Virus record (IMG/VR): IMGVR_UViG_3300032134_000005
Location: 1-44,624 of that record
Origin: a virus
Length of the DNA stretch: 44,624 bases
Strand: one strand, 5' to 3'
Of this stretch, positions 253 to 44,378 are shown one piece after another. Every line of letters starts with the position of its first letter. Position 1 is the stretch's first letter. Both the position numbers and the translations under genes were made by a program. The notes under the pieces are model-generated. The model was not told the DNA's origin and did no database searches. It saw only the letters and a list, made by a program, of their open reading frames with translations.

Positions 253-1494
253 TTATAACAACTTTTCAGCGTACGCATTTTCTAATGATACACCTAAACC
301 CTCTGGTAGCTCGGCTGCTACTGCATTACGAAGTGCCGTACCTTTCGCTATGGCATCTTTGGGACGCATATGAATGTATTTCATACTCATCTCCTCGTTT
401 TTATGACCTAGTAGGTGCATTAATTCGCTCGGTATTATGCCCTGTTCAGTCAGCCTTGTCGCGTACGAATCACGCAGCGAGTGAACAGTGAATTTTCCAT
501 ACCGTTTCACGAACACAGGATCATTTAGTCCAGCCTTATTGATTCCGTTTCGCAGCGCACCCATGTAACCACCTTTGGGTTTCTCAACATCAAATGCATG
601 GGGATATACATACTTCGATCCACGAACATCACGGTACTTGAAACGCTGCTGCATCACTTCGCGTAGACGATCAGTCATTTGCAACATATCAGTCGTGTCT
701 GTTTTCGGACGATAGACTTTTATGCCCACCCAATTCACTGTATCAACATCTGTCCAAAGGATGTGACGACCTTCCGATGATCGGACACCTGTGTCGAGAT
801 AAGTGATTAGTAAATGAAAAGAATCAACAGCCCACAGCCTCTGGTTGCGAGGCGCACGTTCCCACGAACATTTGTTCAGGTAGATTTTCGTCACCGGATT
901 CATCACATCGATGAGCGTCTGCTCCTCCGCTTCACTAGCAGCGCGGGTTTTTTTCTTAACCGGGAGCTTCAAATCATCAAAGTCTAAATCGTGATTGATT
1001 TTAATGCCCCACTTCCGCTTACAAGCTTTCTGACACGCTTGAATGTAATCTACCTCTTTATTGATCGTCGCATTAGCATAGCCTTCCAGCTTACGATTAG
1101 TCATGATTACGTCAAGGTCGCGGTTTGAAAGGCTGGCCCACAGACGCTTAGAATCAAGGCTGTAAGGCATAACCTTTTCAGGCACCCTGTACAACTCATC
1201 AGCTGGGAATGTACCGCCTAGACGCTTCTGAAAAGCCTCAGACTGCGCCTTACCTGAATCAGACAGTAACGTCTGCTGGTCGACGTACAGCTGAATAACA
1301 TCAGCGATTGTGGCGTCGTGCGTCAGTCCTGCAATCTTGTGGGCGCGATTCTTCGACAGCATAAGCTCTGCTATTTTCATAGCCTCGCGCTTATTCGTAC
1401 ATCCCGTCGACTTTCGTTGACCGTTTAGGCTGAAACTCCATTTCTGTGATAGGACTTTACCTGCTTTATCGGTTCTTCGGAATAATTTAGTCAT
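253..1494 (-). CDS. int: tyrosine recombinase (phage integrase)
   Basis: Site-specific recombinase of 413 aa, expected to insert and excise the phage genome. The C-terminal half carries the family catalytic residues: Arg in DTGVRSSEG, a Lys in the RPKTDT strand, HSLRDSYATRL (the HxxR box), LLGHKNEEMS and the nucleophile region MKYIHMRP. The N-terminal half contains a SAM-like core-binding region. The start is ATG preceded by GTAGGAGT at good spacing. It is the last gene of the early block. Integrases occur in some T7-like phages of marine bacteria, so the gene suggests a temperate lifestyle despite the lytic-type core. The attachment site is unknown. Confidence 0.95.
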   Translation of the reverse strand: MTKLFRRTDKAGKVLSQKWSFSLNGQRKSTGCTNKREAMKIAELMLSKNRAHKIAGLTHDATIADVIQLYVDQQTLLSDSGKAQSEAFQKRLGGTFPADELYRVPEKVMPYSLDSKRLWASLSNRDLDVIMTNRKLEGYANATINKEVDYIQACQKACKRKWGIKINHDLDFDDLKLPVKKKTRAASEAEEQTLIDVMNPVTKIYLNKCSWERAPRNQRLWAVDSFHLLITYLDTGVRSSEGRHILWTDVDTVNWVGIKVYRPKTDTTDMLQMTDRLREVMQQRFKYRDVRGSKYVYPHAFDVEKPKGGYMGALRNGINKAGLNDPVFVKRYGKFTVHSLRDSYATRLTEQGIIPSELMHLLGHKNEEMSMKYIHMRPKDAIAKGTALRNAVAAELPEGLGVSLENAYAEKLL

Positions 1495-1850: not shown

Positions 1851-2180
1851 TTACTTTAGGGATTCATAATCCGTCGGTTCTGTGCGTTTTGCGTCGTAGA
1901 GAACCTCAAAAGTGTCAGGGTCGTAAAACTTCATCAGCTCACGTACAAATTTCTTTGCGTCGACGCCAAAGGCATCTGCAAAAGCTTTGTATTTTGCTGG
2001 TGGTATCTTACCGACGCCAGACTCAATCTGACTTATGAATGTGTAATATTCAAGTCCCACGGTGGCAGCGAGGTCACGTTGTGTATAACCATTACTTGTT
2101 CGTAATGTTTTCACAATTAACCCACCCTGTTTACGTGCGTTTTTGGACTTATGATCTGATGCTTTCTGGTGTAAAGCCAT
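1851..2180 (-). CDS. XRE-family helix-turn-helix regulator
   Basis: A 109-aa protein with a helix-turn-helix at about residues 25-75 (TLRTSNGYTQRDLAATVGLE, then YTFISQIESG), the pattern of Cro/CI-type DNA-binding domains. Residues after about 80 form a short tail without recognised domains, so it is shorter than a self-cleaving CI repressor. The start is fixed by AAGGAG seven bases upstream of ATG. Three ACTTTAAGT near-palindromes lie 60-140 bases upstream and are candidate operators for autoregulation. Next to the integrase, it is the best candidate for lysogeny control. Whether it represses or activates is not shown. Confidence 0.88.
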   Translation of the reverse strand: MALHQKASDHKSKNARKQGGLIVKTLRTSNGYTQRDLAATVGLEYYTFISQIESGVGKIPPAKYKAFADAFGVDAKKFVRELMKFYDPDTFEVLYDAKRTEPTDYESLK

Positions 2181-3093: not shown

Positions 3094-3337
3094 AGTCGAT
3101 GCTGTAGCCGTGAATGGCTTTATATTGTTTACGTGCGTTGTTCATTTCGTCGGCTGGTAACATCGCCCAGTACTGATAAGCCTTATCGAATGCCCTCTCT
3201 TCTCTGTGCTCTTGTGCTGAGGTTTCGATGTCGTAAAGGCTCCCGACGTTCACGACGTTGTGATACGCCCGATCTGCGTGGTAAGCGCGTTCTAAGGTGC
3301 GTTGGTTCTTTTCTCGTAGTGCTATTAGTTGTTGCAT
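3092..3337 (-). CDS. small hypothetical protein, 81 aa
   Basis: An 81-aa, largely helical protein with many charged residues. It contains a short internal near-repeat (ERAYHADRAYHNVV). The ATG follows AAAAGGATAAAACACC, a strong ribosome site. It pairs with the 75-aa gene just upstream, and the two together are bracketed by identical 53-base repeats. No family is recognised. Confidence 0.65.
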   Translation of the reverse strand: MQQLIALREKNQRTLERAYHADRAYHNVVNVGSLYDIETSAQEHREERAFDKAYQYWAMLPADEMNNARKQYKAIHGYSID

Positions 3338-3659: not shown

Positions 3660-4511
3660 CTAGGCGGCTAAGAAAACAGATTGAACAGCTGGGCGTACAA
3701 AGCCAGACTGATCGCCTATTGCATCGCCCTTGGCGCGTAGACCAACAATTGTTGCCGGTAGATCATCCGGGCGATAGTCTGTTAGATCCCCGTCGATTAC
3801 AGTGGCAGTAATGCCGTTAATTGTGTAGTGCGTGGGTAGCGTTTGGCCTCGCTTAGTGTCGAACACTGCGGCCACGTTATGGCCTCGTGCTAGCTCACTT
3901 GCTGCTAGCGCGTCGTTATCTTCGGATAGGCTAAACGTTAACGAATAGTAGGCCGGTGTGGTGCGGTTTGGGATCTTTGTATAGTCGTAGATCTTAGCGT
4001 CTGGCGCTGCAGAGTGGATAAGCTCGGCTACAGTCATAAAGACACCGGCGTGTTTAACCTTGCTCACTTCCCATTTGATATCTGAGGTGGCATTAGGGCG
4101 AAACGCTAGCGCCATGTTTAACTTTTTGGCCTTGTTACGTGCCGCCACCACCTCTTTAACTAGTAGAGCCACAAACAAAGCACGGTTCTCAAAGTATAGG
4201 CGCGTCTTAGCGGTTCGAGCGGCCTCTTTACCGGCTTTGTACATTGGGTTACCAGCAGTGTTTAAACACGCCTCACGGCATCCGTTGGAGGCCATAGCGC
4301 AGGTGTTATAACCGCTTACTGTGGCTGGTGCTAAATGTAGCGGGAAAGTTAACACGCCGTTTTCCTTGGCGTTCTTTGCGACCTTGGGGTTAGACAGTGG
4401 ATCGGCGAATAATGAACCTTTTACATTGTATTCACGAGCCAAGCGCATCAAAGCGGCTTTAGTCATGTGGTCGTAATGGTCGAATTGTGATAGTTCAGTT
4501 TTCATTAACAT
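3660..4511 (-). CDS. conserved phage protein of unknown function (GP88-like?)
   Basis: About 283 aa. A cysteine cluster, NTCAMASNGCREACLNTAGN, lies near residue 70. It is followed by an Arg/Lys-rich helix (TAKTRLYFENRALFVALL) and later by a TSDIKWE stretch and KIYDYTKIPNR. This pattern recalls a phage family known as gene product 88 (assignment from memory, uncertain). The closely spaced cysteines suggest a metal or cluster site, but function is unknown. An ATG at 4520 overlaps the AAAAGG ribosome site, so the ATG at 4511, nine bases after it, is preferred. It is the largest early gene besides the integrase. Confidence 0.8.
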   Translation of the reverse strand: MLMKTELSQFDHYDHMTKAALMRLAREYNVKGSLFADPLSNPKVAKNAKENGVLTFPLHLAPATVSGYNTCAMASNGCREACLNTAGNPMYKAGKEAARTAKTRLYFENRALFVALLVKEVVAARNKAKKLNMALAFRPNATSDIKWEVSKVKHAGVFMTVAELIHSAAPDAKIYDYTKIPNRTTPAYYSLTFSLSEDNDALAASELARGHNVAAVFDTKRGQTLPTHYTINGITATVIDGDLTDYRPDDLPATIVGLRAKGDAIGDQSGFVRPAVQSVFLAA

Positions 4512-4533
4512 GGTGATCATCCTTTTGGTTTGC

Positions 4534-4872: not shown

Positions 4873-5298
4873 TTATTTAGCGTAGCGTTTAGCCTTGCGT
4901 ATTGCGTTTTTAGATTGAATCGGTGTGATTTCCCATACGTTTTGGATGCGATAGCGTCGGCCCTCGCTCCAATCTTCAACCTTGCCATTAGCAACAGCTA
5001 AGGCGTGGCCCTTAACGTTACAAACATAACGTTTGCTAGGGTCTAAATGGTGTGGCAGCGTGGTAACTGTTTTCGCAGTTGTATGAACCGTGAACACGTT
5101 AAACCCCATCTTACGCATAACGTCTTTGTATACGTGGCTGTATGTCCCTTTGCCGGCCTTGCGTCCGGCCTCTGCTAGTTTGGCGTGTACGAGTTTGTAA
5201 GGCTGATTCGTAGCGATTGCCACGGCCTTAACTGTACAGTCGTTGTTCTCTTTGTATGCGTCAGATACTGGTACGCACGATTGATAAGTTATGCTCAT
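4873..5298 (-). CDS. hypothetical protein with possible papain-like Cys/His site
   Basis: First gene of the early block, 141 aa. Near the N-terminus NNDCTVKAVAIATNQPY places a Cys at the head of a helix. The second half has CNVKGHALAVANGKVEDW, with a His followed by Asn/Asp. This order (Cys helix, then His strand, then Asn/Asp) is the pattern of papain-fold cysteine enzymes, and DC(T/V)VRA-type starts occur in phage proteins of unknown role. Protease or amidase activity is inference only. The C-terminus is basic. The ATG follows AAAAGGATGC; the 889-base leader lies directly upstream. Confidence 0.75.
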   Translation of the reverse strand: MSITYQSCVPVSDAYKENNDCTVKAVAIATNQPYKLVHAKLAEAGRKAGKGTYSHVYKDVMRKMGFNVFTVHTTAKTVTTLPHHLDPSKRYVCNVKGHALAVANGKVEDWSEGRRYRIQNVWEITPIQSKNAIRKAKRYAK

Positions 5299-5324: not shown

Positions 5325-5351
5325 ATTGTGAGAGTTAGAAGAAATTTAATT

Positions 5352-5449
5352 GATACCTCTATCGTATTCGGTTGACCTTTCCGATTGAGGTATCTCTTTA
5401 AATTGCCTCAAGACGCTAATATCTATTCGGTTGACCTTTCAATTTAGCG
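5352..5449 (-). promoter_or_regulatory. twin hairpins with identical 17-base loops
   Basis: Hairpin 1 (5352-5394) pairs GATACCTC with GAGGTATC, has one A-A mismatch, and continues with ATCG/CGAT. Hairpin 2 (5414-5449) pairs CGCTAA with TTAGCG. Read on the sense strand, both loops are GAAAGGTCAACCGAATA exactly (5365-5381 and 5424-5440). The stems are unrelated in sequence, so pairing and the loop are conserved rather than the whole element. They lie in the 5' leader of the early transcript, between the boxA sites and the first gene. A protein-binding RNA, processing site or loop-recognised regulator are possible roles. Confidence 0.7.
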
Positions 5450-5536
5450 GCTTGCTTAGACCTTTACGAATTCACCGCCAGCGCATCCCATGCCGCGCCG
5501 TCAGTGTTAGTAATTCAGATCTTGTAAAGTTAGCAG

Positions 5537-5548
5537 TGTTAAAGAGCA
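5537..5548 (-). promoter_or_regulatory. rrn-type boxA, downstream copy
   Basis: The sense strand reads TGCTCTTTAACA, identical to the core boxA of Escherichia coli ribosomal RNA leaders, which binds NusB-S10 and makes RNA polymerase resistant to termination. It lies about 180 bases downstream of the putative promoter at 5727-5754 and 240 bases before the first early gene. Confidence 0.7.
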
Positions 5549-5690
5549 AAAGCCCTCAACAAAAAGAAACCACCTCTTTAGCTACTACGCGTTGTATCGA
5601 AGCGACCTACTCGGTTGGCATGGGCCATGTGAGTGTTACAGGTCGGCCAATACAATGCGGTTTGCAATGCGTCTGCCGGCGGTTTCAAAT

Positions 5691-5702
5691 TGTTAAAGAG
5701 CG
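5691..5702 (-). promoter_or_regulatory. rrn-type boxA, upstream copy
   Basis: The sense strand reads CGCTCTTTAACA and continues ATTT, so GCTCTTTAACAATTT matches the E. coli rrn leader over 15 bases. Its first base matches lambda nut boxA (CGCTCTT). It begins roughly 20-25 bases downstream of the -10 of the putative promoter, as in a compact rrn-type leader. Confidence 0.72.
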
Positions 5703-5726
5703 GTCGCCGTGAAGCGATGTGCTCAT

Positions 5727-5754
5727 ATAATCACGCACAGCAAACCTTTGTCAA
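5727..5754 (-). promoter_or_regulatory. sigma70-like early promoter
   Basis: A perfect -35 TTGACA (5754-5749) is followed after 16 bases by GATTAT (5732-5727) on the sense strand, then ATGAGCACATCGC. The 16-base spacer and close downstream boxA resemble ribosomal RNA promoters. A T-rich stretch (GTTTTTTG) lies upstream of the -35. This is the best candidate for host-driven early transcription; the -10 is imperfect. Confidence 0.55.
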
Positions 5755-5838: not shown

Positions 5839-5989
5839 GCCTATCCAATAGGCCCTAATATGAGGTGAAATTAAATCACCACAATCTATAGGGAACTCTG
5901 CTAGTAACGATAAGCCCTAGCTATATCAGGCGATGCGCCTACCTCATTCCTAGACTGTCTGTCTAATGTCTGTTAGCTATCGATTAGAC
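5839..5989. other. hairpins and 19-base repeat in the leader
   Basis: This stretch contains GCCTAT/ATAGGC (5839-5853, three-base loop), AGGCG/CGCCT (about 5929-5941) and GTCTAAT/ATTAGAC (5961-5989). CTGTCTGTCTAATGTCTGT at 5955-5973 is identical to 44298-44316 at the start of the RNA polymerase gene. I see no gene in 5299-6187; plus-strand ORFs there lack ribosome sites and family features. Confidence 0.5.
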
Positions 5990-6147
5990 GCCCAACTGGC
6001 GTGGCTTGAGGCCCACCCCGCCCACCTTCGATCTGAGCCATCGTTGTGTCCGAGCCGTGGGGGTAGAGGGGGGGAAGACTTTTTGTGCGCGGGGGTATAT
6101 ATGACCTTACGAATCTTCCGAATAAATCGAAACGACCCTCCCTCCCC

Positions 6148-6187: not shown

Positions 6188-8083
6188 CTAGACATCGCGT
6201 TGGGTTACAACTGAACGACTGCCATCGGCCCTCCTACGGCCTCTGATAGACACCACATTGCCACCTAGTTCCCTACCTGCGAAACCACCCTGCGCCATCT
6301 CCATGAAGTCCTCTATTTCTTGTTCCCATCTACTATCTAGGACACCCTGTCTCGCTTCGTCTACGGACTGACCCATCGACTTCTGCCAGTAAGCTACTGC
6401 CCCGGCTAAAGCGTCCACCCTATCGTCATGCTTTAAGCATCCACGGTCACGAGTGATGTGAGTAAGTTGGTACATTAAGGAGTACACATGGTCTGTCGAT
6501 TTGACATCTGAACGTATGAGAGCTTCATCCATCACTAAACGGTGCTGCGTCATGACAGGCTCTAAGGTATCAATGATACGACCTTCCTTATGACCCTTGG
6601 CCCATTCAGATTCCTGTATCGTACACCCACCGGGCCACACCTTCTGAAGGATAGGACCGAATGAAGTAACCCATAGTCCCTGTCCGTAGTTAGGTTCTAC
6701 CTCTACCACGTTAACTGAGAAACGTTTAGCATCTACAGCTATCTGCTGCATGGCCTCTGCTGGATCACCCTTAAGGCCACCCACATGGAGGACGTACATG
6801 ATGCCGTTCAGTGTCGCTACGATAGCCCATGCTGTTTCATCCTTACCCCTACCTGCAGGGTCAACGAATAGCACCGTACCATCATAAGATTCCCACTCGG
6901 TATCAGTGAAGAGAGGACGAAGGAAGTGATCACCAGAGAACCCTAAGTTACTAATGTCTCTGATCTGGTTCTTCTTATCACTGTCCCTACCCCACTGTAC
7001 CTGTAAGGGTGCCTTGACGGGGTTAGTTGAGAACACAACCAAGTCGAACTGACGTAACGGATAACGCTCAGAGTCTGACAGACTCGTATCGAGCATATAC
7101 TGTAGGGCATATGTTGCTCTACCCTTAGACTCAATCGATACCATCTCGTCTTCACCGAAGCGGGTATCAGTTACCTGACCATTATCTAACAAACCTTCTT
7201 CGTTCTTACGACGTAGATAAGGGGCCAGTATGTTTACATCTTCACCTGACTCTTCGTCACGGAGAACATAGTTCTTCAGCTTGTCTACTGAGGGATAGCG
7301 TACAGGGATTGTGAATGTCCTGAACTGCATGGCCTTAACGAGTACGTTATAGATAGACTCTTCGGTCTGTGGTGTACCCAGTAGGATGATGTCACCCTTA
7401 CCATGCTCTGTCTTGGTGATAGGCACGAAGTCAGACTGTACGACCCTAACGATCCTTTGTCGGGCTTCTTCTGTGAGGGAGTTCTTCTCTACCTCAATGT
7501 CGTCTGCGATAAGTAACGTCGCACGACTACCTGTAATCTGGGAGGTTATACCCCTAGCAGCTACGGAATAGCTCTGGGATAGTGAACTACCAGCGACATC
7601 AAACTGATCAGCTTGGTCACGACGCGCAGCTCCTTTCTCACGAGCGCCTTCTATAAGCCACTGAAGGATAGGCATCGATGAGATAATACCTTTAGTCTGC
7701 GATACGAATTCCTTGGCCTTAGAGCCAGCAGCAGATACAACGAGGATCTTCTCGTCACGGGGGTTACGCATGAGCCGCCAGATAGCGAAGGCTGATGTGA
7801 TATAAGACTTACCCGCGCCACGGAAGCATCGGACAATATCTTCACGAGGGTTCTTATACAGGGAAGTTAGTAGATGATTGTCCAACTCTTTAGCTTCAGC
7901 TGTGTCATAGCCATACTGTAGGCGATGGGCTATCTCGTATTGAGCTTCCGTAGGTTGGGGAAGACCGAGATGATGCCATACAATAGCAAGGAAGTTACGG
8001 AAGTCATCAAAAGCGGGCCACAGTTCTTCTGGGAAGGGTGTCTGCCAGTGAGGCTTGCCGTCAATCATATAGGGGTTGAGCAT
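6188..8083 (-). CDS. terL: terminase large subunit (T7 gp19-like)
   Basis: The DNA-packaging motor of 631 aa, close to the T7 gp19 length (586). The ATPase half has a Walker A-type CFRGAGKSYIT near residue 87 and the Walker B strand LLIADDIE near residue 193. The nuclease half has VLFVDPAGRGKDETAWAIVA (an acidic metal site) and HDDRVDALAGAVAYW near residue 570. The start ATG follows AAGGTACGCC. Directly upstream is the small terminase, with a GGGGC/GCCCC hairpin between. It is the last gene of the virion block, as in T7. Confidence 0.96.
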   Translation of the reverse strand: MLNPYMIDGKPHWQTPFPEELWPAFDDFRNFLAIVWHHLGLPQPTEAQYEIAHRLQYGYDTAEAKELDNHLLTSLYKNPREDIVRCFRGAGKSYITSAFAIWRLMRNPRDEKILVVSAAGSKAKEFVSQTKGIISSMPILQWLIEGAREKGAARRDQADQFDVAGSSLSQSYSVAARGITSQITGSRATLLIADDIEVEKNSLTEEARQRIVRVVQSDFVPITKTEHGKGDIILLGTPQTEESIYNVLVKAMQFRTFTIPVRYPSVDKLKNYVLRDEESGEDVNILAPYLRRKNEEGLLDNGQVTDTRFGEDEMVSIESKGRATYALQYMLDTSLSDSERYPLRQFDLVVFSTNPVKAPLQVQWGRDSDKKNQIRDISNLGFSGDHFLRPLFTDTEWESYDGTVLFVDPAGRGKDETAWAIVATLNGIMYVLHVGGLKGDPAEAMQQIAVDAKRFSVNVVEVEPNYGQGLWVTSFGPILQKVWPGGCTIQESEWAKGHKEGRIIDTLEPVMTQHRLVMDEALIRSDVKSTDHVYSLMYQLTHITRDRGCLKHDDRVDALAGAVAYWQKSMGQSVDEARQGVLDSRWEQEIEDFMEMAQGGFAGRELGGNVVSIRGRRRADGSRSVVTQRDV

Positions 8084-41716: not shown

Positions 41717-43036
41717 CTAACTGAAGAAGTACGGACTGTTCAATAGTTCATCTATATTGAAGTCACCTTGAACTGGTGGGTGTGGTAGCTCAACATGGGG
41801 AGCATAGCTGTGGATGTGGTCACGGAACTCTGTCAGGTAGTTACCCTTGAAGATTCTATGCGCCTCTTCCCTGATTACTTTATGCAGGACATCAACCGCA
41901 TTCTCCCCACAGTCTAACTGTCCGTGGTGGACACCGTACGAGTCATGTATGAAAGCAGTGGAAGTAACCCCGTAATCGTTCTTCAGGCGTAGAGCCACGC
42001 TTTGGAGTAACCCCGCGTCGAAACTGTGAATGACGTTAGGTGAGGCAGCAAGATAGTTCTTACGCTCATCAAGGCCCAGCACACTATCCTCATCCCACAA
42101 ACTAAACTCCCCCATCAACGTCCTCACCTTAGTTTTACGCAGCTTGTGGTACGCCTGTGTGCATTCCACGCCTGTCGGAGTAATCCACTTCATAGGCAGC
42201 TCGTGAGCCGCTAATGCTTTAGCGCACTGCTGAAAATATTCCATGATCGTAGATGCTGAAGTAACTACTGCCTTTAAAGCATCAACAATTAAGTCCCTCA
42301 TGTAAGCGGCGTTAGTTCCCTTACGCCCATCAAGGTTATCGCAGAAGCCATCCTTCACTAACTGGCTTGCTATTCCACGAGGCGTAACGCCGTAAGGCGT
42401 GGTCATAACAGCGCGTTTCATGGTTTTACGTGTGATTTTACCCATCCACGCCAGAGCTTCTTCCCGGCCCTGTAAAGCCATTTCATTGTTAAGCTTGATC
42501 ACGGCATCCATCACCTCTGTATATAGGTCATACCGCTTCTGTAGGCTGCTACAGTTGGTCTTGATAGCACCAACAGAATCCTTACCCAGTAGACTCAGCA
42601 GCTGCATTCCGTTTGTTACACCGTCCATGGCGCACACTGTCCGACTCAGGAAGTGAGCGGGGTTATCAAGCCCTGTAGCCAGTGCGTATTCCCGTGCCGT
42701 GGCGAGGAAAACATATGGCTCATCGATACCTTCGCTGGCCCATAGCCGCTCACCGTCTAGCGGGTTCAACCCTGAGTCAACTATAAGATCATGATGATCG
42801 TCCACCCACTGGATGCGCTCGGCCCATGTGGCTTTGTCCTGCCCTGCTGTGTTAGCGAGTGATATCTTTAACCAGTAAAGACCTCGGTCCCCCAAAGGTT
42901 TGGCATGGTGGAACTGCAACAGCCCCTTGCAGATCTGATCCCCCTGTGGATTAAGGTCTTGAGCCATAGGGTATAAACGTGTACGGAAATCAGCAAAATG
43001 CGGATAGGTGTGTCGTGAAGAAATGCGTGTTGTCAT
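41717..43036 (-). CDS. phage RNA polymerase, catalytic C-terminal half (separate ORF)
   Basis: A 439-aa polypeptide equal to T7 RNA polymerase from about residue 411 to the end. Visible: LNPQGDQICKGLLQFHHAKP, Asp138 in CAMDGVTNG (T7 Asp537), Arg203 and Lys207 (T7 Arg627 and Lys631), Tyr215 in MTTPYG (T7 Tyr639), Asp365 in FIHDSYG (T7 Asp812) and the C-terminal foot LNSPYFFS. The conserved DxxGR motif reads DFRTR (residues 16-20), so Gly is replaced by Thr. The gene starts 11 bases after the stop of the N-terminal half with only a weak ribosome site (TAGAGAC), suggesting coupled translation. Confidence 0.93.
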   Translation of the reverse strand: MTTRISSRHTYPHFADFRTRLYPMAQDLNPQGDQICKGLLQFHHAKPLGDRGLYWLKISLANTAGQDKATWAERIQWVDDHHDLIVDSGLNPLDGERLWASEGIDEPYVFLATAREYALATGLDNPAHFLSRTVCAMDGVTNGMQLLSLLGKDSVGAIKTNCSSLQKRYDLYTEVMDAVIKLNNEMALQGREEALAWMGKITRKTMKRAVMTTPYGVTPRGIASQLVKDGFCDNLDGRKGTNAAYMRDLIVDALKAVVTSASTIMEYFQQCAKALAAHELPMKWITPTGVECTQAYHKLRKTKVRTLMGEFSLWDEDSVLGLDERKNYLAASPNVIHSFDAGLLQSVALRLKNDYGVTSTAFIHDSYGVHHGQLDCGENAVDVLHKVIREEAHRIFKGNYLTEFRDHIHSYAPHVELPHPPVQGDFNIDELLNSPYFFS

Positions 43037-43047
43037 TCGTTATGTCT

Positions 43048-44319
43048 CTAATAAGTTGTTTCACCCCGGAGTGACCGGGCCATGTCTAGTTTTCTAATGA
43101 AGGATTCACGCTTAGATTGCATCTTTGCGTTGTCCTCGTGAATGCTTGCTATTTGTAACTTCCACTCGGTGCGTTCAGCTTGGTCCATTAGCTCCCACTC
43201 TTCGTCAGTTAGCTTCTCAGGTAGAGGCACATCATCCGATGATGGTAGACCACCTAGTTCCCCACCCTCCGCTCTCACAGTGAGCATCGTATCAAGGATA
43301 AAATCGTTGACTTGCCACTCGGTTGATTGGACCACGTTGATAGCATCTAAAAACTTATCGCTTAAGGCTTCGGGGAAGCTGGCGGTATGCTTATACATCC
43401 CTGATCGCATGATCTTATGCTGGATGATCTCGTAACCACCAGTAAAGCCTGTAAGTTTGCCCTCATCGTTATAGGTATGCTCCCACGGATTTGGTTGGCA
43501 TCTCATCGGTACCATATAAGGCCTATTGACCTCCAGTTGGGAGTTGATATCGGTAATGGCTTGTTGCGCTTCAGAACTTAAGAAGACACGCCTCTCAGTC
43601 TTGCCTGTACGATAGACTAGGCGCTCTTCAAACCACCCACCACCGTGTTTAATCATTAGGTCTAACAACTTAGCCCCGATATGTACCCGCGTGTCAGTAG
43701 GCCACTCTTCGTTCTCAATGGCATCCATCTTGGATTTCCATCTGGCCCATGTCTGCCTATTAATCGTGCCGCCTACTTTTTGTATCAGCCACGCAGAAAA
43801 ATCAAAGCCCCCGTTGTCGCCAGCGAGGATCTTTGATTTCTTTTTCCACTTGTTGAATTCGATTTGCTCTTTGACGGCTTGGCCTATTCTCAGGTTCAAA
43901 CCTGTCGCACCTCGCCCTTGGTAGGATTCGCCAGACGCTTTCTCAGTTAAGATAGTTCTGGCTGTAACCAAGGCAATTTCCTCAGCGGATAACCAACCGA
44001 TTAACCACCACCAATCTTTGTGTGCTCCGCGTCTACCAGAAGTGATTTCCCGTTTGGCTTCTTCGATGGCAGCTTGGAAATAAGGGATGGCGTGGAGCAT
44101 CATTTCTTTGAGGATGATTTGTCCCGGCGCAACGTCGCCTAACTCGGATGATTCATGTTTAACAGTGCCATCGCGTTTCTGTTTCACTGTACTAAATGTC
44201 GCACGGTAGCGATCCTTACCTCGATCTATTGCTGCCGCCTCCCATAAGATTTCTCTTTCCTTCTCGGTTATGCACAGAGTATTATTTGATGCACTTTCTG
44301 TCTGTCTAATGTCTGTCAA
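43048..44319 (-). CDS. phage RNA polymerase, N-terminal half (separate ORF)
   Basis: About 423 aa, equal to the T7 RNA polymerase N-terminal part (residues 1 to about 410). Conserved blocks: LNLRIGQAVKEQIEFNKWKK, IGAKLLDLMIKHGGGWFEER, YMVPMRCQPNPWEHTYNDEG, GGYEIIQHKIMRSG and VQSTEWQVNDFILDTML (T7 IAQNTAWKINKKVL). It ends RKLDMARSLRGETTY and a TAG. The start is probably TTG at 44319, because GAGGGG lies nine bases upstream and no ATG occurs for about 60 codons. A second TTG at 44328 abuts the GAGGGG. With the C-terminal half the total is about 862 aa, near T7's 883. Confidence 0.92.
   Translation of the reverse strand: MTDIRQTESASNNTLCITEKEREILWEAAAIDRGKDRYRATFSTVKQKRDGTVKHESSELGDVAPGQIILKEMMLHAIPYFQAAIEEAKREITSGRRGAHKDWWWLIGWLSAEEIALVTARTILTEKASGESYQGRGATGLNLRIGQAVKEQIEFNKWKKKSKILAGDNGGFDFSAWLIQKVGGTINRQTWARWKSKMDAIENEEWPTDTRVHIGAKLLDLMIKHGGGWFEERLVYRTGKTERRVFLSSEAQQAITDINSQLEVNRPYMVPMRCQPNPWEHTYNDEGKLTGFTGGYEIIQHKIMRSGMYKHTASFPEALSDKFLDAINVVQSTEWQVNDFILDTMLTVRAEGGELGGLPSSDDVPLPEKLTDEEWELMDQAERTEWKLQIASIHEDNAKMQSKRESFIRKLDMARSLRGETTY
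44298..44316. repeat. 19-base repeat at the RNA polymerase start
   Basis: CTGTCTGTCTAATGTCTGT is identical to 5955-5973 and shares TGTCTGTCTAAT with 223-235. Here it lies inside the first codons of the RNA polymerase N-terminal ORF, directly after the proposed TTG start, so it could be an operator for the polymerase gene. Confidence 0.6.
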
Positions 44320-44378
44320 CGTTTTCAACCCCTCAAATTGGCCCTAAATCGCTCTTAACTTCACTAGTATCAAGCTTC

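Follow-up and report, generated by a model that had tools for sequence, protein, structure and literature searches.

A marine T7-like phage carries paired boxA sites behind a host-type promoter, a putative leader for antitermination by host Nus factors

Accounts of T7-like phages usually centre on the phage-encoded RNA polymerase, whose gene the host enzyme must first reach. In lambdoid phages, the nut sites have boxA behind the early promoters, and the same holds for the phage leader described here. A boxA anti-termination element is located downstream of the early T7 promoters, and mutations render Gp2 dispensable, according to the available part of PMC3709561 (citing Savalia 2010). In the accessible sections of PMC5725501, NusB/E was reported to bind boxA, and Nus factors could block Rho in the absence of N, whereas at rRNA they served mainly in its folding. 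In the case of LUZ100, read-through of a terminator that follows the integrase was described, and the accessible portion of PMC10134795 made no mention of boxA there. A literature search for boxA in phages, including the letters GCTCTTTAACA, gave the statement in the available part of PMC3709561 as the sole relevant one. The first-pass annotation had known of no T7-like phage with a tandem rrn-type boxA leader. This could not be upheld, since T7 itself carries an exact boxA with published genetics.

Twenty-nine phage records were picked by hand and not at random (20 plus 9 more), and 23 of them were Autographiviridae. The first 20 contained CTCTTTAACA in 9 records at 14 sites, with one site for the reversed control (SIO1), and 4 of the 9 further records contained it. 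The exact core GCTCTTTAACA was found on the early strand of 12 of the 23 Autographiviridae, namely T7, T3, SP6, K1-5, gh-1, LKA1, BB8, LUZ100, 3MF5, phiYeO3-12, KP32 and Kvp1. All 16 sites were in the first 2.3 kb, including that of BB8 at position 2261, and the reversed control gave 0. The 11 negative members were phiKMV, LUZ19, KP34, Era103, VP4, ICP3, P-SSP7, HTVC011P, YIMV22061, phiAB1 and LIMElight. Among the records outside this family (SIO1, T4, N4, lambda, P22 and HK022), only N4 had a site. The boxA of T7 was at 813, 63 nt past promoter A3 (750) and upstream of gene 0.3 (925). SP6, K1-5 and 3MF5 had two or three exact copies each.

The window analysed here was the whole 44,624-base IMG/VR virus contig IMGVR_UViG_3300032134_000005, from a marine T7-like phage with an integrase. 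End repeats were looked for in the record and none were found. The long genes had minus-strand orientation. T7-like versions of terminase, primase-helicase, DNA polymerase and RNA polymerase were encoded, and the early region contained the integrase and a transcription regulator. The putative promoter and both boxA lay in the non-coding stretch that separates the end of the terminase (6188) from the start of the first early gene (5298). The features were as follows; L006 is a related viral contig.

5727 to 5754, minus strand: putative sigma-70-type promoter TTGACA-N16-GATTAT (TTGACA at 5754, GATTAT at 5727), 10 of 12 consensus matches
5704 to 5717, minus strand: small hairpin UCGCU-UCAC-GGCGA just 5' of boxA1, in a boxB-like position as in rrn; −4.9 kcal/mol, z −1.17, alone not significant
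5691 to 5702, minus strand: boxA1, CGCTCTTTAACA, exact; all 17 columns of the block unchanged in L006
5537 to 5548, minus strand: boxA2, TGCTCTTTAACA, exact; identical in L006 together with the preceding GTTGAGGGCTTTT
4873 to 5298, minus strand: first early gene, 141 aa, phrog_3754 (no assigned function); in L006, a relative with 55% identity is located after the leader
3660 to 4520, minus strand: early gene, phrog_1617 by family match (no assigned function)
1851 to 2180, minus strand: early gene, transcription regulator (phrog_8 and others)
253 to 1494, minus strand: integrase (phrog_1, phrog_216)
43048 to 44328, minus strand: phage RNA polymerase, N-terminal half (phrog_414 positions 7-381; T7 RNAP 22-408)
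41717 to 43036, minus strand: phage RNA polymerase, C-terminal half (phrog_414 positions 386-816; T7 RNAP 416-883)

By sequence, the early sense strand had a host-type promoter followed by an exact boxA, ahead of the first gene. Both boxA were downstream of the promoter on the same strand, 154 bases apart, with the positions and orientation claimed in the first-pass annotation. The untranslated leader was approximately 420 nt long, and 238 nt lay between the end of boxA2 and the first start codon. In all 44,624 bases, the exact core GCTCTTTAACA had no occurrence besides these two, and its reversed control had none; for an 11-mer, our own arithmetic gave approximately 0.02 matches expected by chance. 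When two mismatches were allowed, 4 boxA-like sites were found against a shuffle mean of 4.86. This count was at shuffle level, so the case for the boxes was based on exact identity to boxA, on spacing and on conservation. Taken by itself, the promoter was at chance level (10 such sites against 10.4 expected), yet it was kept in relatives. Since the promoter score and the two-mismatch count were unremarkable, the relatives were used as evidence.

The comparison with E. coli rrnB showed a promoter, a hairpin and GCTCTTTAACAATTT in the same order. These 15 identical bases, present in rrnB, confirmed the match to the rrn leader noted earlier. However, rRNA genes were absent from the window, the leader otherwise differed from that of rrnB, and there was no clear boxC. 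GGCAGACGC after boxA1 was kept in L006 and was not a recognised boxC. In Rfam, the window gave no match at the gathering score, and protein genes followed the leader. Two sub-threshold Rfam matches near the leader were rejected as chance-like.

Because boxA is common to nut sites, the leader could be a lambda-type nut site served by an undetected phage N-like protein. Two early ORFs without a family match (1569-1784 and 3095-3337) would leave room for such a protein. However, no lambda-N-like or other antitermination family was present among the 8 early ORFs scanned, these two included, as the first-pass annotation had proposed. The order of elements also differed from that of lambdoid nut sites. 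The small hairpin preceded boxA, and boxA1 was followed by a strand of a long hairpin and not by a short boxB-type hairpin. In addition, lambda, P22 and HK022 were without exact CTCTTTAACA. A nut site with its own protein was considered very unlikely.

We propose that the leader serves boxA-dependent antitermination by host Nus factors without a phage protein, and that the second box is an extra chance for loading. The probability of this reading was put at roughly 0.64. Host RNA polymerase would initiate at TTGACA/GATTAT and make the untranslated leader. The emerging boxA1 would be bound by host NusB-S10, which would assemble with NusA, NusG and SuhB on the polymerase during elongation, in the manner of rRNA operons and the T7 boxA. 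The modified polymerase could withstand Rho in the leader, the early genes, the regulator and the integrase, and would arrive at the phage RNA polymerase genes without an N-like protein. A further opportunity for loading would come from boxA2, with the intervening conserved hairpin determining which box is free. In this scheme, we infer promoter use, Nus binding, Rho resistance and how the two boxes share the work.

A T7-type single-subunit RNA polymerase was present in two ORFs (phrog_414, E 1.9e-41 and 3.5e-118). When the contig ends were taken as adjacent, its frame began approximately 6.0 kb and ended approximately 8.7 kb downstream of the leader. The path of about 11 kb given in the first-pass annotation was wrong. 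The contig L035 showed the unbroken order of terminase, leader, early genes, integrase and RNA polymerase.

No direct DNA relatives were found in the phage collection. The terminase search of viral contigs gave 18 loci, of which 9 contained the leader, 6 ended before the promoter and 3 were distant; the three distant loci were without boxA. Hexamers similar to those of the promoter were at the same position in L188, L004, L006, L008, L012 and L013. L006 and L015, which had 2 mismatches in 720 nt, kept both boxA with a spacing of 151, compared to 154 in the window. A single GCTCTTTGACA stood in the position of boxA1 in L004, L005 and L016. The promoter and a hairpin were present, without boxA, in L008, L012, L013 and L017. 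In bacterial assemblies, 79 T7-like loci were scanned. The nearest of them, L188 (Bermanella MAG, terminase 97%), kept the promoter and lacked boxA. The absence of boxA in L188, L008, L012 and L013/L017 meant that it was not essential in the clade. Exact boxA was found in 4 of the 79 loci (5 sites; reversed control 0), which meant that it was not general. The idea of an rrn-type antitermination leader stood with respect to the paired boxA behind a host-type promoter, the rrn order and the spacing kept in a second lineage, and fell short with respect to novelty. The first-pass annotation had named an absence of boxA conservation in relatives as refuting, and by this criterion the outcome was half against it, with both boxes in the L006 lineage and none in the closest relative and several others.

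Bermanella was not accepted as the host. The link rested on binning, which is weak, and the one full rrn leader in the genus (G007) has GATCTTTAAAA, two mismatches away. Further tandem-boxA relatives were sought via the first gene, and this search gave the L006/L015 lineage only. The search for GCTCTTTAACA-N122-150-GCTCTTTAACA gave 4 contigs, and L043 and L045 were the L006 lineage again. L042 was rejected because its pair sits in a repetitive, apparently coding stretch. Another phage contig, L044, had a duplicated promoter-boxA unit approximately 150 bp apart around 6216-6362. Two promoter-boxA units, 224 bp apart (10661 and 10885), followed the terminase in the distant relative L263 (Nitrincola sp. 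A-D6; terminase 47%), and L466 of the same assembly was a likely rrn leader with the same core GCTCTTTAACA. In Candidatus Enterovibrio escacola, two T7-like loci had boxA (L252 at 2154 and L257 at 10080) followed by a strongly folded stretch (z −5.25, L252) and shared downstream sequence.

The two boxes of the window were connected by a long hairpin with the following parts.

5552 to 5701, minus strand: long hairpin with boxA1 paired to an anti-boxA at its base; 52 pairs, window fold imposed on the window/L006 alignment
5678 to 5686, minus strand: covarying helix 2, 5' strand, GAAACCGCC; all 9 pairs maintained in L006, 5 of them with both sides changed
5566 to 5574, minus strand: covarying helix 2, 3' strand, GGTGGTTTC; partner of 5678 to 5686
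5552 to 5560, minus strand: anti-boxA, GTTGAGGGC, directly 5' of boxA2; identical in L006

The whole leader was more strongly folded than shuffles (z −4.16). The alignment of the window and L006 was made by sequence alone, and the fold was imposed afterwards. The sequence between the boxes was identical at 65 of 121 positions. In the window and L006, 11 of the 52 hairpin pairs were double-changed and 88.3% of cells were paired. Slid controls with the partners moved by 1-3 columns gave 34-45% of cells paired and 0-3 double changes; the fold was derived from the window sequence, which favours the true over the slid versions in cells paired, and the double changes were the stronger part. In helix 1, boxA1 was paired to GUUGAGGGC; the 9 core pairs of this helix were invariant and by themselves prove nothing. 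The 24 bases from anti-boxA through boxA2, GTTGAGGGCTTTTGCTCTTTAACA, were identical in both sequences. The strength of anti-boxA alone was rejected as evidence, as it was equalled or exceeded in 127 and 148 of 2000 shuffles (6-7%) and was not significant, and the argument rested on conservation. Since two sequences only carry the hairpin, its covariation was real but thin.

A search of the viral collection for an anti-boxA plus boxA hairpin gave 24 contigs. Outside ORFs of 80 aa, these were the L006 lineage (2 contigs) and one other sequence (L088/L138/L517, 3 contigs), a leader with two TTGACA promoters. The remaining contigs looked like chance occurrences inside genes and were set aside.

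Computed folding indicated that boxA1 was mostly paired in the folded leader (0.10-0.14 unpaired), which meant that late binding would be hindered. In nascent prefixes, boxA1 was computed to be 0.66-1.00 unpaired, and this dropped to 0.10-0.13 once anti-boxA appeared. In the case of L006, the computed pairing of boxA1 partly switched back when boxA2 was made. GUUGAGGGC may alternatively close a UUUU-loop hairpin with boxA2 (−9.2 kcal/mol). A two-state boxA relay can be modelled, by which the phage would sense the supply of Nus factors and perhaps set lysis versus lysogeny. If NusB-S10 bound boxA1 before anti-boxA was made 130 nt later, anti-boxA would fold onto boxA2. If boxA1 was unbound, anti-boxA would lock it, and boxA2 would stay open as a second chance. 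Such a relay was regarded as quite doubtful.

The strong fold (z −4.16) and the covarying hairpin would also suit a boxA that acts chiefly on folding and processing. In that case, the Nus-modified polymerase would aid the long hairpin and RNase III would cut it, a scheme already put forward for rRNA, and antitermination would be secondary. BoxA was indeed ahead of annotated RNase III sites in T3 (781; stem 822-875), gh-1 (728; 845-893) and phiYeO3-12 (915; 956-1009). However, the fold strength after boxA was inconsistent, with z from −5.25 to +1.60 across 19 sites, and no RNase III site was demonstrated in the window. The T7 genetics were also presented as anti-termination in the available part of PMC3709561. 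We considered a role chiefly in processing possible but unlikely.

Evidence bearing on antitermination by host factors was also sought in the viral collection. The pattern TTGACA-N36-66-boxA gave at least 120 stretches in viral contigs, and reversed boxA gave 74. With duplicates removed, 113 boxA matches, among the matches listed, were compared with 66 reversed ones. A −10 at 16-18 bases together with a position outside ORFs of at least 100 aa was found for 60 of the 113 among the matches listed, compared to 1 of the 66 with reversed boxA. Among the matches listed, a T7-type marker was within the fetched stretch at 8 of 58 loci, and none of these 58 had a 16S gene. These counts indicated that a sigma-70 promoter with an exact rrn-type boxA is a common phage leader module well beyond T7-like phages. 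Its carriers probably include temperate phages. The survey suggested that many phages, textbook ones included, borrow the host rRNA antitermination signal without a protein of their own.

This enrichment behind promoters in unrelated phages was strong, and it argued against boxA being non-functional remnants, such as captured host rrn leader DNA. The patchy presence of boxA in the clade would fit remnants. However, the boxes were the best conserved blocks in L006, while the flanks diverged with compensatory changes. Remnants were considered extremely unlikely. The boxA pair could also act as a decoy that titrates NusB-S10 and so weakens the synthesis of host rRNA, or could repress the first gene. 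Two copies were located in the early leader RNA, and repression of suhB by boxA was reported in the accessible sections of PMC5725501. However, boxA2 ended far from a Shine-Dalgarno site, 238 nt ahead of the first start codon, and a cis-acting RNA on the polymerase would be a weak sponge. Both forms of this explanation seemed highly improbable.

T7 and the window phage had in common the exact GCTCTTTAACA behind host promoters, an untranslated early leader and a T7-type RNA polymerase. However, T7 had one boxA, and the window had two joined by a covarying hairpin with anti-boxA. The window phage also differed from T7 in its integrase and split RNA polymerase. SP6, K1-5 and 3MF5 were similar to the window in having several exact boxA in the early region. 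In contrast to the window, their copies were 212-545 bp apart, genes or additional promoters lay in between, and an anti-boxA beside the second copy was not visible in the sequence contexts examined. A paired boxA with a linking hairpin was not described in the literature searched, with subscription literature outside the search. The kind of boxA was thus already known from T7, and the covarying paired-box architecture looks new. The paired-box leader is a small RNA suited to direct tests of loading order, Rho resistance and hairpin switching.

Two further hairpins were located downstream of the boxes.

5403 to 5460, minus strand: hairpin with conserved loop GAAAGGTCAACCGAAT, copy 1; only in the window and the L006 lineage
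5344 to 5401, minus strand: second copy of the hairpin with the conserved loop GAAAGGTCAACCGAAT; expectation of 0.03 matches of this kind per window

These successive hairpins (5344-5460 on the minus strand of the window, 8621-8742 in L006) had the loop GAAAGG(G/T)CAACCGAATA and were found only in the two tandem-boxA lineages. They may resemble the HK022 put RNA, a pair of stem-loops that work without a protein. The twin hairpins might be a protein-binding or put-like element. The tandem leader, the two hairpins and the phrog_3754 gene co-occurred in the window and in the L006 lineage. From this joint occurrence, we read them as what may be one exchangeable cassette.

The RNA polymerase of the window (41717-44328, minus strand) was split into two adjacent ORFs with an 11-nt gap, and the split was also found in L035 and L188. 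A split common to distant relatives was ruled out, as a single frame was present in L024, L034, L036 and L040. The split ORFs possibly encode a two-piece polymerase of the single-subunit type. Between the terminase and the promoter, blocks such as CATATATNCCCCC and TATAGATT (approximately 6090-6110 and 5860-5895, minus strand) were kept in close relatives. These blocks were candidate promoters of the phage polymerase or a candidate origin.
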